A DNA stretch of 25,586 bases, from assembly GCA_009602725.1 (NCBI GenBank), contig WELB01000156.1, positions 165,279-190,864 of the forward strand, in the 5' to 3' direction. The stretch is from Spirogloea muscicola. Lineage: Eukaryota; Streptophyta; Zygnematophyceae; Spirogloeales; Spirogloeaceae. The first letter of the stretch is position 1. Each line of letters begins with the position of its first letter. Both the position numbers and the translations under genes were made by a program. Below, piece by piece: positions 1,261-25,586 of this stretch. A model generated the notes under the pieces. It was not told where the DNA came from, ran no database searches, and saw nothing but the letters and a program-made list of their open reading frames with translations.

Positions 1261-1422
1261 CACCCGCTTGCTCGAGGAGCGGTGTCCCGACGGCGGCAAA
1301 CGTAGCAGGCAGATATTAACACGCTTGAATACGCCCCGCATGCGCCATTCAGTTGTCCTGCAGCGTTCTCTTGTTTTACCGTTTTTCCTGGCCCCTTCGA
1401 AGTTTGTTTACTAAGTTTACGA

Positions 1423-1440
1423 GGCTGGCCTCTCCTAGCC
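1423..1440 (+). repeat. LINE 3'-tail hairpin
   Basis: GGCTGGCCTCTCCTAGCC folds on itself and is preceded by CCTGGCCCCTTC, as in the 3' untranslated region of the LINE copy at 22890-23013. It is therefore a LINE tail without recognisable coding sequence. Confidence 0.55.
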
Positions 1441-1549
1441 ACCGCCCTCTCCTGGAAGCGTCTTTCTTCTCTGGGTTATGCCTTGCATCTGCAGGCAGCC
1501 CGCTCCTTGACTGCTGCCATCGCCCCTCCTTTGTGAAGAAATTCTTTCG

Positions 1550-2110
1550 CGCTGTGAAGCTCTTGCCCGAGGACGACCTACAGAGGCGCCCCGGGCTGCA
1601 GTCTGCGTCCTGCCCAGGGGCAGCGGAGACATTGATGGCGCTCCCATCCTACGCAGCACGCGCTTGCCAGACGAGGTCTTCCGGACCGCCGTCCACCTCC
1701 TTCTCAGCCTTCATCCGCCCTGCCTCATGACGTGCAGCTGTGCGATGCGGAGATCGCAGCGCAGATGCAGCGCAGCTGGCTGTGCACATGCTCTGATGCA
1801 CCTCCTTAGGGACAGCATATTTGGCATTGTCCAGGAGGCTGGCTACCAAATGCCCATGAAGAACACGTCCATCATGCCAAACCAGGTTGGGGGCTGACGG
1901 TCGTCTAGACGTGGGGCGTGTTGACCTCGTCACCATTATGTCTAGTGGGGGCCCTAGCCTCATTGTCGACGTGGTCACTACGGACTCCTTCTACCCCAGA
2001 GGCCTTCTCCAATTGGATGGAAATGCGGGGCCCGTAATCTGCAAAGGCTGCAGGCGCCAAGGAGCACAAGTACAAAGACGACCCTGCAGGCCACGTCCAC
2101 AGTGTATTTG
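1550..2110 (+). mobile_element. LINE fragment: pre-zinc region, zinc-knuckle region and REL domain (copy F)
   Basis: Three frames must be stitched together. Around 1590-1640 a segment reads A-A-E-T-L-M-A-L-P-S. Around 1660 comes L-P-D-E-V-F-R-T-A-V-H-L-L-L, a pattern I recognise from the region between reverse transcriptase and zinc knuckle in algal LINEs. Then L-L-R-D-S-I-F-G-I-V-Q-E-A-G-Y follows, and finally R-V-D-L-V...S-L-I-V-D-V-V-T-T-D-S at about 1920-1990, matching the REL motif of the 23 kb copy with both acidic residues present. Stops and frame changes separate the blocks, so it is a pseudogene. No reverse transcriptase domain is visible. Confidence 0.65.
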
Positions 2111-9509: not shown

Positions 9510-12500
9510 TAGAAAGAAACAAAGAAGAAAGCAAGAAAGGAAGGAGGGAGGGAGGGAGGANAAGGAAGGCAGGAAGGCAGGAAGAAAGGAAGAAAGAAAG
9601 AAAGAAAGGAAGAAAGAAAGAACAGAGAAAGGAAGAAAGTAAGAAAGAAAGAGACACAGAAAGATAGAAAGAGAGAAAGAATAAGAAAGGAAGAAAGAAA
9701 GAATGAAAGAAAGAAAGAAAGAGAGAAAGAGAGGAAAAAAAGGAAGAATGAAGAAAGAAAGAAAGGAAGAAAGAAAGGAAGAAAGAAAGGAAGAAAGAAA
9801 TAACAAAGAAAGAAAGAAAGGAACAAAGAAAGAAAGAAAGAAAAAAAGAAACAAAGCAAGAAAGGAAGAAAGAAAGAAAGAAAGCAAGCAAGGAAGGAAG
9901 GAAGGAAGAAAGAAAGAAAGAAACGAAAGAAAGGAAGAAACAAAGAAAGAAAGTATATTGATGACCATACCGTGTACCCATGCTGGCCATCCTCCACCCC
10001 TCGTTCTGCCTCCACAGTGCCGTTTTCACCCACAACTCGCCAGCTCATCTATTCAAAAGCAGATCCAAAGTGAAATCTGATATACTATATCTCGCAACTG
10101 CGCGAAACTAGAACAAACTAGAATAGAGCTTGTTGATATGTATTGGCATATACCCATGACAAATTGGACAAATATATGCAGCTCATTACCAAGTCTCTCC
10201 AGGGTACTGCTACATGGCACAAGAGCCAAAAGACTGGCGGGGTGAAAAGTCATGAGTAAATGCATGACATTACACATGACATTGTATAGCACCTTCCTTG
10301 ATGTTGCTGACCATGAAATGATCATTGCCCCAGTACAGCCCTTATCAAATTGCCTGCAGTCACAATGGTCATCCGCAGCAACTGCTCAATGCCAGGACAG
10401 TGTTGCTCAGGTCAACCGGCAAACGCAGGTCATCAGTGCATTTGCTATGCCGTTATGTAACAAGCATTGACCTGCTGTCTGGCTTCCTTCTTCACAGATC
10501 TTGATGCATTGCAAACATTCTGCATTCCTATGCCTTTTGAAGCAGTGTCAGAAGTGACACAACAACTATGGCTGTGGGAGCTGATGAACACCATGAAGGA
10601 TGAGCACATCACATACATGATAGCAGCAAGATTGTCAGGGGGTGGTAGCATCTCGTCCACATGAGTAGCCAAGGCACATACTGAAGTGGTCTCACAGCCT
10701 GACACCTGCCCATGACGAGACTCCTGGTCAACATGTCGCCTCCTTTGTCTACGCTTCACCAAGCAGGAATCAAGCAACCCAAGAGAGCACAGAGGATATA
10801 CCAATCGCAGTCCTCCAATGAAGTGGACACCGCCGTCGATCATAAAAGCTCCCTGCAGGATGCAAGGGCCACAATATACATAAGCATGCTACACGTTCTT
10901 ATGAGCAATTACAGCACCCACATTCTGGTGTCGGATACAGAGGCTATGATAGAATTTGCTCCATCTTGGTCACGAGTAAATGCTTGACATATGGAACACC
11001 GAGATAGATGAAGAGTGTAATCTCTCCACAGAGCTATGCCTGTGACTTCAGCAACTTGCAAGCCAGTACTCAACCTTCAAGTCTGGATCTCGCCTCCACT
11101 GGCTAGAGTAGTAACGGTTGCCTGTATTCATTGGGGCTTCCACAAAAAGTTCCACCATCATCAATTTTCCTAGTTCCTTCACAAGCTCTGCTGCCTGCAC
11201 GCGTATACAGCTGCCACCTCGGTCTTTCAGGTCACATTCTTAGAAGAGGACCTGTGATCTTTACAATAACAAACCACATTGACCACTTGTCTCGAGAAAG
11301 CTGGAGTCAGACAAGTACTATGACTGATCCTGACATGAATTCTCCAGGCTCAATATGATATGGCCGTGTTTGAACTTCTATTCTAAAGATCAGCAAGAGC
11401 CCACCTTCATAAGGCCTGCCTCAAATCTGTAGTTCTCAGCCACAGCCCAAATGAGCCCATGTTGACCCCCTTGTAAACTCTTATACACTTCCAACGTCTC
11501 CAAGGCCTTCTGAACAGCTGCAAACACCAACCAGCTCAAGAACGTCATGAAAGTATGCAAGGGATGACAGAGATTTCAGGCCAGGCTGAGAAGCACGCAG
11601 GAGCTGCTGGAAGTTGCATGAAGAGCTAGTGGACTGGTCAGCAAGGTGCTCGCATCTCAGGCTTGAATCTCAGACCATCCAGGAAGATGACATAGCGAAC
11701 TGTACAGAGGCTTGGAGCTGTGAGGAGACTGAGGGGTCATACTAGCGGCAACAGGCTTCTCTGCAGAAAAAGCAGAGCAGGAACAATTCACAGTCAGAGC
11801 AAGCAAAGCTCAACACAGCAGTCACTCATTTACAACTGTTGGACATAGTAGTGGCACCCAGGAGCGTCCAGCACAATGCAGCGAAGACAATTTCAGCCGT
11901 GACAGCCCACTTGGTGAGTACACTCCTGAAAGGCCAACTACACCCATTGGGGCAAGTCCTCCTCGGTGTACAGCACACCTGGGAGCAAGTTAAAGATGTT
12001 GCTCTACACAACAATTGCTGTAGAAGACACTGACTCCTCTTCGTGATGAGGGATACATACCTTGGATGACGTGCTTGCCAGCTCTCAACGCTCTGACCAC
12101 AATGTCCGGCTGCAGCACAATTGACACATTAGTGGATCGGCCCGTGCTGCCATGGTTGCCCGACTGCAATTCACTTGAAATATTTGACATAGCGATTAAA
12201 TTTGCCAGAGCTATGGAGTAGGCTCAGTCCTGCTGCATCTAGTATCGAGCAATGACAAAGAGCTCCTCGTGACTTGCAGAGGGCACTCGAGCTCCCAGTG
12301 TGCGGGCTCCGCTTGTACCTGCACCAGTGCCGGGAGGACGATTGCTACCGCATCGATGGACTTGTCGTCGAGGATGAGCTGGAGCCCCGCCTCGCCGTAC
12401 CGGAGCGCGACAGCGGGCGAGAAGCGCCGGACCTCCTTGAAGACGCCCTCTGCTGCTCCCTGGGGCCAGCCTATCATGGACACCGTCACTTGCTCATGCT

Positions 12501-13936: not shown

Positions 13937-16147
13937 CTACAGGGGAACGAGCTCTGGGCGGTGAAGAGTGGCAGCATATGAGTGCAGCTTCTCTGCGGCA
14001 TCGTTGAAGCTGGAGCACAAAAAGTATGTCTTCTGGAAACCTTCTTTGTAACTCATCTTTGGCAGCTTGGCAAAGGGATCCAGGTCCAAGAACTGGGGCT
14101 TCTTACCATCCTCTGTGCCCGACTGCATGTACTGCAGCTCACCAAAACTTGAGAGAAGTCCTGCGCCAAAGGCCTTGACCTGCCCCTGCTCCAAGATGGT
14201 ACCAAACTCGACCGTGTACCTGCATGAGCAAGAAAGGCATCTGCTGCTATAAGTTGAAAACCCAAGAAGCAAAGTATCCTGAGCAAGATGTGACTCTTAG
14301 CTCAGGCTGTGTTGGCTGTGCAGATGAGTAAGAACTGTGCCATGTAGCACCTGCTAAAGACAACATGCTGCCTTGACCTATCTGTGCCGAGCTTGGAAGC
14401 CGTGCAATGACCAGCATGACACCAGCACATTAGGCCTTCATGTGTTTCCAAGTTTTCGAAGTCACCCACCAGTACAGCTTGGTGAGCTGCCAAATCTCCT
14501 TCTTATTGGCTCCTAAAGATGCCAGGCCAATCTGATAGGCAAGATCAGAAAATCCGGGATCTGCAAGCATCGGGACGTGTCCCAGAAGCTCATGACAAAC
14601 GTCGGGCTCTGGCGTGTACATGGGGTTGCTCTTGTGGCGCACATACTGCTCGTCAAGCAAAGACGGTGAGGATGTCAGCCAATGCAGTGCTTCAGTAAGT
14701 GCACCGTGCAAAATGCACCAAGATCGTAAAGTCGAAACATCTGTCTAGGCAAGCTGCTACATCAAATATCTTCTCTGTGCTGATGTGGATGTTCATGAGG
14801 CAGATTCAAACATGTAGTATCTGCGGGGCAGCACCTGAGTAGAGTGAAACGTCCTAAATGCAAGTCCATTCAGAAAATCTCTTGGATGTAGCAATCCAGC
14901 CACTGGTCTGACTCGCCACCCTGTCTTCTGCTGGAGAATCTCTGATACATCTTGAAGCTGAGGAATGACATCTGCCTGGAAATGAAATAGTGGAAAGGTT
15001 GCCAGGTACTCCTGGCACGCATGTGTGGAGTAGAGCTTTGTCAGCTCATTGAATACCGTGCGCCAAACATATAATTCATCCTCTGTGTAGTCTACTTTTG
15101 GTATAGGCGTCCCTCTGTGGAACGAAAATTGCAGAAAGTTGCATAAGTGTGCACCCCGAGATTGTTCTAGAGGTTGACAACGCTTTAGCTCGTACAAAAG
15201 CTCAAATTGCTGCTCGAAGTCCAGAAATAGGAACTCAAATGTCTCAAAGGGTGATGCCCTTTGTGTAGCTTGAGCAGTTCCCAAAACAAGGCTGCTGTAG
15301 ATTGAAGGTACAAACTTACATGACATAAAATTTAGCAAGGTCGGCTATGAAGGTCCGTCGCTTCTTGTAGTCCTCGTCATGATAGCCCTGCTTGTGCATA
15401 GTAAGTGTCAGAGGCACAGATATGACTACAGTCAGCCGTTTGTTGACCAGATCTTACGCTCCCAACACATTCATTTCAGCACGTTCAGAATGTCTTCCAG
15501 CTTGCCATGTGGACAGTCAAGTAGACAGACGAGGATCAGACTTCTATTGCACGGCTCAGGAGTCTTTACCGGATGGTCTTTAGCAAGATTTGCACCAAAT
15601 CCCATTATGCGCTCGCCATTTGAAATGTCCTCAATCCGTCTCGGAATGATAATTTCCTCGTCATCTGGCACAGTGGGAGCTATCTCAGAGGCCGGTGCCT
15701 CGGAAGCGGGTGCCTGTGTGCCTGGACACCGACAGACGATGATGCAATTCAGGCCCAACCCCACCTTACTCCAGCGCAACCTGGGCTATACGAGAAGCAC
15801 CTGCCCTATCAACATCAGGCCCCACTCATGCAAAGCCAGGTTGACAAAGGGAGATTACGTCCATTCCTCGTATCACCTGCTGCTGAGGCCGAGACGGACC
15901 GAGCAGGACTCCTGAGCTCCTTGGTATCAAGGCCACCGACAGCCGCAGAAAGAGCAGCGCTCCTTTCCACGTGGCTGACCAGTCTGCCATCTAGAACGAG
16001 TGAAGGCCCTGTCATCGAACTACAGCATTTGGAGGGCCTTGACGAGCGCGCCGCAAGCGCTGGCCTCGTCCGTCGGCCCATTGGTCCAATTGCATCCGAA
16101 ACTGGTAGCGACAGGGCCGCCACAGTGGACGAGGCTGTCACAGCCAT
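13937..16147 (-). CDS. PAH: Phenylalanine (aromatic amino acid) hydroxylase, 6 exons
   Basis: Exons in coding order: 16147-15877, 15721-15570, 15387-15320, 15114-14835, 14645-14470, 14219-13937; 409 residues, phases consistent. The start ATG sits in GCCACCATGGCT. The first ~90 residues are Ser/Ala/Arg-rich with few acids, like a plastid transit peptide, and there is no visible ACT regulatory domain. Then come [16 protein letters not shown], the pterin-site segment [12 protein letters not shown], and the iron ligands H-E-L-L-G-H (His ~275 and ~280) and V-E-F-G (Glu ~320). The 40-residue spacing to Glu equals that of human PAH (290 to 330). The enzyme converts phenylalanine to tyrosine; homologues in non-flowering plants are reported to be plastidial and folate-dependent. 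The exact substrate preference (Phe, Tyr or Trp) is inferred. Confidence 0.93.
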
Positions 16148-22565: not shown

Positions 22566-22803
22566 GGCGGGCGAGAACGGCCAGCGCCTGGCCACCTGGT
22601 GGTAGCCGGGGAATCGCGGCGACTGATATCCAGAGCCGGCTGTGGAAGCCTGCGAGTGCACAAAAGGTGGGGAGCCGGTGGGTATGGGGAAAACGAAGCA
22701 GCTCCCCAACGAATACATACGTGTATGTATATGTCTTCCAAATACACGAAATCCCCCCAACGGCGGCGAGGGGCCGCGAAAGCAGGTCTTCCAAATTAAG
22801 GGG

Positions 22804-22900
22804 ATGGCTGCGAGAGGCCAGCCAAATGATCGAACCAGGTCTGAACGGCCGAGGACGTGCTCGCCCATAGAAAAAGAGAGAAAGGGCTCGCCCATTGAGG
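22804..22900 (-). repeat. LINE-tail hairpin and duplicated 3' end
   Basis: A second hairpin (ATGGCTGCGAGAGGCCAGCC, 22804-22823) lies beyond the 3' end of LINE copy A. The terminal sequence GCTCGCCCAT occurs twice, at about 22859 and 22886, separated by a purine-rich spacer. This is either two nested tail insertions or a duplication of the LINE terminus. Confidence 0.55.
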
Positions 22901-23840
22901 CTAGGGGCTGGAAAAAGCCAGCCCAGAAAAGAATGAACAAAGGACGAGAAGGGGCCAGGGGAAGTACAAAGAACAACAAGCACATTAAAGAAACGAAGCA
23001 GCTACGAAGCACTCAGTAACCCCTGCTAAGCAGCCTCAGGTCAGAGAGACTGGGTTCCTGGAAGCGGGTCCCCTGGCCAGAGCCAGAGGCAGCAGCGAGG
23101 GCTCTGCCTGCACGCAGGTGCAGCGCGCGGGGCCATAGACCTCTGCAGCGAGACGGCCAAGCGCATGCGGTACACCTGCGCTAGCGACCCTGCTGCATGG
23201 GAGTCCACCGGCTCCCCATGGAAGCGGCGGGCAATGGCGTGACGAGAGAGCTGGTTGAGCAGCTCGAGCCACCGAGCGCCCAGCGCCCCGTGCGTATCGA
23301 TGGCGAGCGGGAAGAAGAGCGCGCCCATAGAAAAGAGGGGCTGGCAAAGCCAGCCCAAAAAAGAATGGACAATGGAAGAACTCGTCTTCCTGCGGATGAT
23401 CTGCGTATTTTAGCTCCTTGGCCCGAGCTGCGCAGGCTACTGCATACCCAGCTTTGGTGGCACACTGGGTTGGATGTGAGCGGTCATAGGAGTCGGTGGT
23501 CACCACGTCCAGGAGAAGACGTGGCCCGCCTGCCGGTGGGGTGGCCACAAGGTCCACGCGACGAGCGTGGAGACCGTTGGCCCGTTGCTGGAGCGGCATG
23601 ACGGCAGAGTTCTCGGCTGCCACCGAGAAGCCAGCCTCCACAAGGATGCCATGCATCGCATCCCGGAGATGGTAATGGGCCGCTGTCCGCTCTCCGCCGT
23701 GGGAACAGCGCAGAACATGAGCGGCCAGCTCCCCATGCTCGGCCCCTCGCTCACCACACTCACACCGTTGCACACCGGAAGGCGCACAAGTACCTGAAAG
23801 GGAGGCCAATATAAGCCTGTTCAGGCAAAAGCTAGTGCAA
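22886..23840 (-). mobile_element. LINE 3' part: zinc knuckle, REL endonuclease, C-terminus, hairpin tail (copy A)
   Basis: This is the most complete copy here. From about 23809 the minus strand encodes a CCHC knuckle (C-E-C-G-E-R-G...H-V-L-R-C), then L-R-D-A-M-H-G-I-L-V-E-A-G, then a REL domain with R-R-V-D-L-V and L-L-L-D-V-V-T-T-D, both acidic residues present, and K-Y-A-D-H-P. After a 57-base insertion (23317-23373) the frame shifts and continues P-L-A-I-D-T-H-G-A-L-G-A-R-W. A second frame change, near the G run at 23140, leads to L-H-L-R-A-G-R-A-L-A-A-A and ends S-D-L-R-L-L-S-R-G-Y with the stop at 23013-23015. A 3' untranslated region with hairpin 22904-22924 follows. REL-type LINEs use this endonuclease to nick target DNA. 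No reverse transcriptase domain is present in the window. Confidence 0.85.
23310..23380 (-). mobile_element. 57-base hairpin element inserted in LINE ORF, with 7-base target duplication
   Basis: The insert 23317-23373 is flanked by perfect GGAAGAA copies (23310-23316 and 23374-23380). It has the family tail structure: on the minus strand ATTGTCCATTCTTTT, hairpin GGGCTGGCTTTGCCAGCCC (complement at 23337-23356), then CTATGGGCGCGC. Insert plus one duplication is 64 bases, which shifts the frame. Conceptually removing it joins D-E-F-F to P-L-A-I-D-T-H-G in one frame. It is therefore a genuine later insertion into copy A. Confidence 0.88.
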
Positions 23841-23959
23841 ACAGTGGTACTACACTTATCGAAAACCTATGCTGAGGAGGGCTAAGGTACAGTATGACGT
23901 TAGTAATCACGATATAAACTCAACAGGCTACAGTAGAAGAAGTGTTTCTTCTTTTTCCA

Positions 23960-24020
23960 TCTGTAAAAGAAAGTGGCTATCCCAAAGAGGGCGAGGCTGT
24001 GAACAGCCAGCCCGATCAAA
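23960..24020 (-). repeat. LINE-tail hairpin, solitary
   Basis: The hairpin GGCTGTGAACAGCCAGCCC (23995-24013) is followed on the + strand by CGATCAAAGTTGACAATG, matching the CATTGTC...-to-hairpin layout of the tail on the minus strand. No coding sequence adjoins it. Confidence 0.6.
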
Positions 24021-24110
24021 GTTGACAATGTCCAAAGGGGCCAAGAATTTCACTACAGCATTTCCGGTAGGATAATCACTTAGTAAGTACCCTCATAGAC
24101 CTTGGCCTTT

Positions 24111-24129
24111 GGGCTGGCCTCTCACAGCC
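24111..24129 (+). repeat. LINE-tail hairpin
   Basis: GGGCTGGCCTCTCACAGCC is preceded by CTTGGCCTTT. It is a solitary tail copy about 40 bases upstream of another one. Confidence 0.65.
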
Positions 24130-24137
24130 ATTGCTGT

Positions 24138-24214
24138 CGATTTGGAAGAGCTTTGGGCTGGCCTTTCCCAGCCTTCTTCTATCCCAGCCCCTCTACTCTA
24201 TGGGCGAGCGATTT
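24138..24214 (+). mobile_element. 65-base LINE-tail insertion with 6-base duplication
   Basis: The hairpin GGGCTGGCCTTTCCCAGCC (24155-24173) is followed by CCCAGCCCCTCTACTC and the terminal CTATGGGCGAG. The unit 24144-24208 is bounded by CGATTT at 24138-24143 and 24209-24214. The 3' boundary coincides with the 3' end seen in other copies, which supports a real target duplication. Confidence 0.6.
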
Positions 24215-24830
24215 CTTTTGGACCAGAGGGCAGACTGCCCTCTGTCCCTCTTTCCTGCCTTCTGGAAACGCTGCAAACTAAGCGAAAGCAGCAACCTGAA
24301 ATAAGCTGCTGTAATAAGCACCAAAAGCTCGCGGGAAAGTAGAATGCGCTAAGCTATTGGCCCGACTACGACGACGTGCGTCGGTCAGGTGGGGAAGACC
24401 ACTAATCTGATGTGTTTAAAGTCCTATCAAAAAGAAATCTTGCAAGGCTTTGTATCTGTTATTTTGTTATTGTTGTCTACTTGTAGTATGGCTCGATACC
24501 TTAGCCGCCATGTATGTCCATAGCGCATGCATCGGTTTCCCTAGGGGTGGTCCTTGTACTGCCGATCCTTCTTTCGTTCCGCAAGGTCTACCGCCCAGCC
24601 AGGCACAATTGGCGTAGATGCCCCCCAAGGCAACAGTTCTTAAAGTATGGCAATGCCGGTGAGAGGCCAGGCCCTGAGAAATAACATGTCCGAAAAGGGT
24701 CTGAAGGCGCAAACACATGTGACCAGTTTAATGGGATGGTTGTTGACATTTTCCAGCTGCAACTTACTCCGACGTTGCGGGTGCTGACTAGGCATTATTC
24801 AGCTCTTGTTGGGGTGCCTCTTTTCCACCT
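24215..24830. other. No gene recognised
   Basis: Only short frames without motifs occur. One hairpin-like remnant (GAGAGGCCAGGCCC) lies near 24661. Confidence 0.4.
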
Positions 24831-25120
24831 GGCCATATCGCTTCAATGCTCCCTTGCCCACGCCGTCCACACGCGAGCAGGCCATGCTATGGCCGCCGCC
24901 TCTGGGTCTCGGCGGAGTGCCTCTTTCTCTTTCTCTGCAGCGCGCTACTCAGACCTGATGTTGCTCACTCGTGGGTACTGAGCTTCCCTCTGCATCGTCT
25001 CTGTGTTCTGCAGTGTTTTGTATTGTAGTCCTTTTTCCGGCTCCTCTTTCTTTGGCTTTGCACATTGTCCATTCTTTCTTGGGCTGGCTTTGCCGGCCCC
25101 TCTTCTCTATGGGCGCGCAC
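24831..25120 (+). mobile_element. LINE C-terminus and 3' tail (copy C)
   Basis: The + strand reads A-I-S-L-Q-C-S-L-A-H-A-V followed by H-T-R-A-G-H-A-M-A-A-A-S-G and ends Y-S-D-L-M-L-L-T-R-G-Y with stop 24979-24981, uninterrupted over about 48 codons. The 3' untranslated region runs through ATTGTCCATTCTTTCTT to a hairpin with a wobble-paired stem, GGGCTGGCTTTGCCGGCCC (25081-25099), and ends CTATGGGCGCGC near 25117. Confidence 0.75.
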
Positions 25121-25187
25121 TTCTCTCGAAGGGGCCAGATTACAATGTGAGTGGCCCAAAAACGGATCAACAAGAACAACATGACGG

Positions 25188-25335
25188 AGTGCGCGCCCAA
25201 ACAGAATAGGGGCTGGGAAAGGCCAGCCCCAAAAAAAAGAGGATGAACAAAGTGCGAATGGGCCAGGGAAATCTTTTCCAGGGGAAGGGCAAGCTAGCAC
25301 GTATGGAATCAAGCAGCTAAGAATCACTCGAGAAG
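25188..25335 (-). mobile_element. LINE 3' untranslated fragment (copy G)
   Basis: On the minus strand this matches the 3' untranslated region of copy A in blocks (TAGCTGCTT, CTTCCCCTGG, TTTGTTCATC) and ends in the hairpin at 25209-25230 and GGGCGCGC. It has no coding part and is therefore 5'-truncated within the untranslated region. Confidence 0.65.
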
Positions 25336-25343
25336 AAAGAGAG

Positions 25344-25586
25344 CAAGCGCGGCCAGATTAACTGGTGGCTGGGAGAGGCCAGCCCAAAAGAATGGACAAG
25401 GTCTGAAGGAGTCGGAGTGCTAAGGACTGAGACAGCAGTAAGCGAACTCTCAGTAACCTCTCGTCAGTAGATGCAAGTCTGAGTAGCTAGCAGGCGGAAA
25501 GACGTCGCCCTGACGGAAGCCGGAGGCCGCCGCCAGAGCGCGGCCTGCGCGCAAGTGGACCGCAAAAGCTAGGGACCGCTGCACAG
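25344..25586 (-). mobile_element. LINE C-terminus and 3' tail (copy B), cut by window edge
   Basis: From the right edge inward the minus strand is open for 44 codons, reading L-R-A-G-R-A-L-A-A-A-S-G-F-R-Q-G and ending Y-S-D-L-H-L-L-T-R-G-Y with stop 25450-25452. The 3' untranslated region, hairpin (25367-25385) and terminus near 25344 are closely similar, inverted, to 1110-1260. Being open and close to copies C and D, it may be the end of a more complete element lying outside the window. Confidence 0.75.

Follow-up and report, generated by a model that had tools for sequence, protein, structure and literature searches.

Genomic copies of non-LTR retrotransposons are often truncated at the 5' end through incomplete reverse transcription, as described in a passage of PMC2881922. 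The insertion reported here, which lies in the ORF of a LINE copy in Spirogloea muscicola, resembles such copies in that the 3' end is kept, the 5' end is variable, a short target duplication is present and empty sites are found in relatives. It differs from typical 5'-truncated LINE copies in that the copies of its family are very short, with 5' ends at a median distance of only 66 bases from the tail hairpin in 30 copies taken in contig order. In many LINE families typical copies are longer. A second point of comparison is provided by SINEs that share the 3' tail of a LINE, since these are also short, bear the stem-loop of a LINE tail and would depend on the LINE enzyme for their movement (discussed in parts of PMC5135761 and PMC3747384). 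Unlike SINEs, the insert carries no separate 5' body, since all of it is LINE tail, and its family is variable in the position of the 5' end. A literature search, outside which the species' own genome paper fell, found nothing on this LINE.

The insertion and the empty sites

The features of the window, the whole stretch of 25,586 nucleotides that was analysed, which concern the insertion are as follows.

23317..23373, minus strand (LINE sense on the minus strand): 57-base insert, 3' tail of a family-B LINE, read directly, with a two-stem fold predicted
23310..23316, no strand assigned: GGAAGAA, first copy of the target duplication (direct reading; chance rate)
23374..23380, no strand assigned: GGAAGAA, second copy of the target duplication (direct reading; chance rate)
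22870..23820 (approximate), minus strand: host of the insert, a 5'-truncated family-A LINE copy with the ORF end and its own tail (tblastn; tail read directly)
24828..25124 (about), plus strand: longer family-B copy, extending 253 bases in the 5' direction from the hairpin, including the ORF end and a tail like that of the insert (tblastn)

The window insertion is real. A 57-base insert with a perfect 7-base target duplication had been proposed in the preliminary description, and was borne out by direct reading and by the other loci of the host family, which were empty in 29 of 29 cases. A 7-mer is repeated 64 bases further on at 24 of 25,515 window positions; 21 of the 24 lie inside one simple-sequence tract (9691-9845), leaving three elsewhere in the window, the 23310-23380 junction among them. 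The surrounding region at 9580-9940, the source of the 21, is a purine/pyrimidine simple-sequence tract.

Host-family loci were fetched for the best 30 of 40 matches listed, 40 of 1123 candidates having been scored. One locus (L064) was the window itself, with the insert, and the remaining 29 all showed an unbroken site, therefore the insertion is particular to the window copy among the loci read. The exact 21-base pattern of the empty site occurred 159 times (81 + 78), while the reversed control gave 0. LINE copies with the empty site, for which a search had been proposed, are thus present both among the loci read and as exact matches, and the 57-base segment is not a constituent of all intact LINE copies at this ORF position, as it was lacking at 29 of 29 sites. 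The claim that the reading frame is restored on removal of the insert and one duplication also agreed with the data: two long open copies, L065 and L068, read DEFFPLAIDTHG across the empty site (D-E-F-F-P-L-A-I-D-T-H-G).

The host copy was delimited by tblastn with the ORF of L065, a longer family-A copy. Residues 454-588 were placed at 23779-23375, residues 587-648 at 23316-23131 and residues 649-686 at 23129-23016, with 96-100% identity in these segments. The host's own family-A tail lies at ~22870-22950 on the minus strand and is similar to the tail in the insert but different from it. The open frame of L065 runs to 686 residues and includes a match to reverse transcriptase (Pfam RVT_1, E 1.6e-10), after which come a C-x-C...H...C motif and an R-V-D...L-L-L-D-V stretch, motifs that we take to mark restriction-like endonuclease LINEs. 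The Pfam search of the family-A ORF returned nothing besides the reverse transcriptase, the region after it included, so the endonuclease label rests on these motifs; comparison of this ORF with solved structures gave no match. Family A is like the R2, CRE and NeSL-type LINEs in the order of a reverse transcriptase followed by putative endonuclease motifs, and differs from them in that its ORF lacks any solved-structure match and any Pfam match other than the reverse transcriptase, and in that no single-site targeting was seen.

The insert belongs to a sister family

The preliminary description had recognised the insert as the terminal tail of the LINE family. Tail identity upholds this, but the two families had not been separated in that account, and the 3' tail that makes up the insert comes from a sister family, B, rather than from the host family, A. 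At least 42 matches listed have tails identical or near-identical to the insert (40 of 886 candidates were scored). Longer family-B copies extend upstream of this tail into an ORF end that shares ~52 to 66% identity with its family-A counterpart; in the window's own longer family-B copy the tblastn match spans 24823-24978 at 52% identity to family A. Alignment with the longer copies accounts for all 57 bases of the insert as LINE tail, with no sequence of other origin. No full-length family-B ORF was identified.

Copy number and the spread of 5' ends

A 34-base core of the tail had 649 exact occurrences (314 + 335), with 0 in the control, and the tail continued to GTCCAAAG in 455 rows. The 5' ends were assessed in the first 30 core copies in contig order (contigs 1 to 5), taken irrespective of where they ended and each containing the exact 34-base core. 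The distances upstream of the tail hairpin were 8, 25, 25, 25, 30, 32, 34, 36, 41, 50, 50, 55, 59, 61, 66, 66, 98, 110, 115, 134, 146, 179, 196, 256, 302, 308, 331, 524, 737 and 737 bases. Both values of 737 are limited by the extent shared among the reference copies, and two of the values of 25 (L039 and L052) are underestimated owing to internal deletions; the copy at L060 appears in these measurements as L059 position 1855. The genome search and tabulation of 5' end points that had been suggested thus yielded a continuous 5' truncation in family B, from 8 to 737 bases upstream. The window insert ends 18 bases upstream of the hairpin, a point at which 0 of the 30 copies end, and it lies near the short end of this continuum; L046 is even shorter. 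A discrete element with a fixed 5' end common to most copies was not supported, as these 30 copies end at many points.

Copies sharing the window's 5' end were sought by pattern. With C kept before ATTGTCC, 25 rows were obtained, consisting of nine short copies (L002 = L011, L013, L015, L022, L025, L028, L029, L033 and the window), two apparent family A/B chimeras (L010 and L021) and 14 that ran into LINE sequence. With another base before ATTGTCC there were 19 rows, of which seven were short copies representing six events (L109 and L110 have identical flanks and were counted as one) and 12 ran into LINE sequence. A pattern a few bases nearer the hairpin gave 11 rows, the flanks of which are unverified. 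A further 5'-end pattern had another family's next two bases in 36 of 40 rows and was for that reason not used as a truncation count. The roughly corrected counts were ~12 and ~11 copies at two adjacent positions and up to ~20 (unverified) nearer the hairpin. No peak of 5' ends at the window's point was proven, and counts this small could hide a two- to threefold excess.

At the locus centres of L010 and L021, a family-A body appears to be joined to a family-B tail, as if the families had exchanged tails.

Flanking duplications in other copies

Flanking duplications were assessed in 15 short events with the window's 5' end within one base, L010, L017 and L021 being left out as they are not short copies. 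Each event was scored by the longest word common to the 14 bases before and the 28 bases after the insert, and the scores were compared with those from 2000 re-pairings of the flanks. A shared word of at least six bases was found in seven of the 15, compared with a mean of 2.5 in the shuffles, of which 2 of 2000 reached seven. The mean shared length, 5.53, was greater than in all 2000 shuffles (mean 4.32, maximum 5.27). The remaining eight events had no shared word of six or more bases. In L002 the junction repeat, CTTCTTTC by reading, is distinct from the longest shared word. Among 29 of the contig-order copies, whose 5' ends are less exact, a test of the same kind scored seven, weakly above the shuffle mean of 3.8 (up to 10). 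Copies of the tail elsewhere in the genome are therefore not devoid of flanking duplications, the absence of which had been named in the preliminary description as an observation that would count against insertion.

Target sites

The ends of the elements resemble ...GGGCGCGCACTTCT, followed by pyrimidine-rich sequence. The 3' flank matched the host family A in 20 of 78 tails, at many positions, demonstrating that LINEs, and not only genes, are targets. The locus L015 (~1383-1700, plus strand) carries an equally short tail, which shares with the window insert (junction at 23310-23380) both its 5' end and the LINE-ORF codon that it occupies. The two hosts are ~65% identical, while the two inserts are 94.5% identical. 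The shared codon represents either two events at a preferred site or conversion, and a truncated-LINE reading of the window insert needs one or the other, target preference or conversion, to account for the second tail. If repeated use of this codon holds up, the target preference of these LINEs becomes testable.

A pattern spanning the 3' junction gave 92 rows (controls 0 and 1), and matches on contigs 78, 330 and 276 have the appearance of tails that terminate at the shared codon. The corresponding 5' junction pattern was non-specific, with 16 rows and 16 in each of two reversed controls, and gave none on contigs 78, 330 and 276; the same-codon tails counted here are those of the window and L015 only. 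Among the 3' junction rows, ten at G000:C353:49946-57911 are exactly 882 bases apart, a tandem array in which the unit includes a LINE tail junction. The tail end is joined to TTCCCCTGGC in at least 25 of the 92 rows, on many contigs, and this recurrence could reflect either a hot spot for insertion or amplification of a composite LINE. Three further tails (L056, L062 and L085), one of them on the opposite strand, end in family A at points no more than ~20 bases apart, close to its CCTGCACGCAGG palindrome.

Predicted fold of the tail RNA

In the LINE sense the insert is predicted to fold into an outer stem (UGUCCAU/AUGGGCG) and an inner 8-bp hairpin, with an energy of -23.8 kcal/mol and a z score of -4.72; 0 of 200 shuffles were as good. 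The 5' end of the insert coincides with the base of the predicted outer stem, and the unit spans the whole two-stem fold. Conservation was assessed in an alignment of the window tail with 51 tails hand-chosen from 106 that had been picked out of 196 representatives, tails with different 3' layouts being left out. The predicted pairs were kept in 89.8% of cells across these 52 tails, compared with 28 to 55% with slid partners. This conservation of pairing was not above that of shuffles in the 52 chosen tails (107 of 500 reached 89.8%), and the same tails gave no covariation support for the fold, including the outer stem, as the score was reached by 181 of 500 shuffles. The outer stem was absent from the RNAalifold consensus, which kept only six pairs of the inner hairpin, and a search of Rfam with window positions 22800-25586 gave no match. 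The structure of the tail may be the feature that is recognised by the LINE enzyme.

Origin of the insertion

These data suggest that the insertion is, with high probability, a family-B LINE copy that arose by target-primed reverse transcription and was severely truncated at the 5' end, an ordinary event of an extreme kind. A LINE enzyme would nick the pyrimidine-rich sequence TTCTTCC (LINE sense) inside the ORF of the host LINE, cDNA synthesis would be primed at the 3' end of a family-B RNA and would halt after ~57 bases, and repair would leave the 7-base duplication; here we infer the priming step, the acting enzyme and the cause of the early stop. The preliminary description had left a choice between a tail-only LINE product and a discrete hairpin element. 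The range of 5' truncation, the duplications and the empty sites support the former, whereas the varied ends and the want of a proven peak speak against the latter. It is unlikely that the insert is a discrete miniature non-autonomous element, in which the two-stem tail RNA alone would be made or protected and then mobilised by the LINE enzyme, even though the insert starts at the predicted base of the outer stem and takes in the complete two-stem fold with its low z score, at least 15 events have the same 5' end within one base, and parts of PMC5135761 report recognition of a 3' UTR stem-loop as shown for stringent-type LINEs. The 15 events share that end because they were sought by pattern; the 5' ends of the contig-order copies are scattered, with none at the window's point, the corrected counts are comparable at the adjacent positions and as high as 20 (unverified) nearer the hairpin, the outer stem has neither covariation support nor a place in the consensus fold, and the insert is wholly LINE tail. 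We consider it distinctly unlikely that the two-stem tail RNA would be protected by the LINE protein as the remainder of the transcript disappeared, with the 57-base domain serving as a preferred minimal template that would insert at pyrimidine-rich sites and repeatedly at the same F-F-P codons in LINE ORFs.

It is very unlikely that a tail fragment was instead captured with no target-primed synthesis, through recombination, gene conversion or break repair among the many LINE tails. L010 and L021 do resemble a family-A body with a family-B tail, and the tails of the window and L015 sit at the same codon of diverged hosts, as conversion could give; this account is opposed by the clean 7-base duplication here, by the duplications above shuffled levels in other short copies, and by the flanks of the window copy, which are unbroken host sequence when compared with the 29 empty sites. 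Almost no weight can be given to the idea of an introner, meaning a short element which enters ORFs and is removed by splicing. A short unit, a target duplication and an ORF frame that is whole in copies lacking the insert would all fit, and sections of PMC9860276 describe introners as elements inserting into many genes. However, by direct reading, no 64-base removal that restores the empty site starts with GT or GC on either strand, and the absence of splice dinucleotides at the ends contradicts an introner. The sequence that hosts the insert is a truncated LINE copy, and the 20 of 78 tails with family A at the 3' flank show that LINEs are also targets.

As a truncated family-B LINE, the window insert is an example of how little sequence a LINE may insert while still producing a clean target duplication, and some at least of the hairpin repeats of this genome are truncated LINE tails, not separate elements. 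Such tail scraps can disrupt ORFs, and annotation may mistake them for miniature transposons. Elsewhere in the window, an ORF at 14793-15338 on the minus strand has a Pfam match to biopterin-dependent aromatic amino acid hydroxylase (E 1.4e-38).
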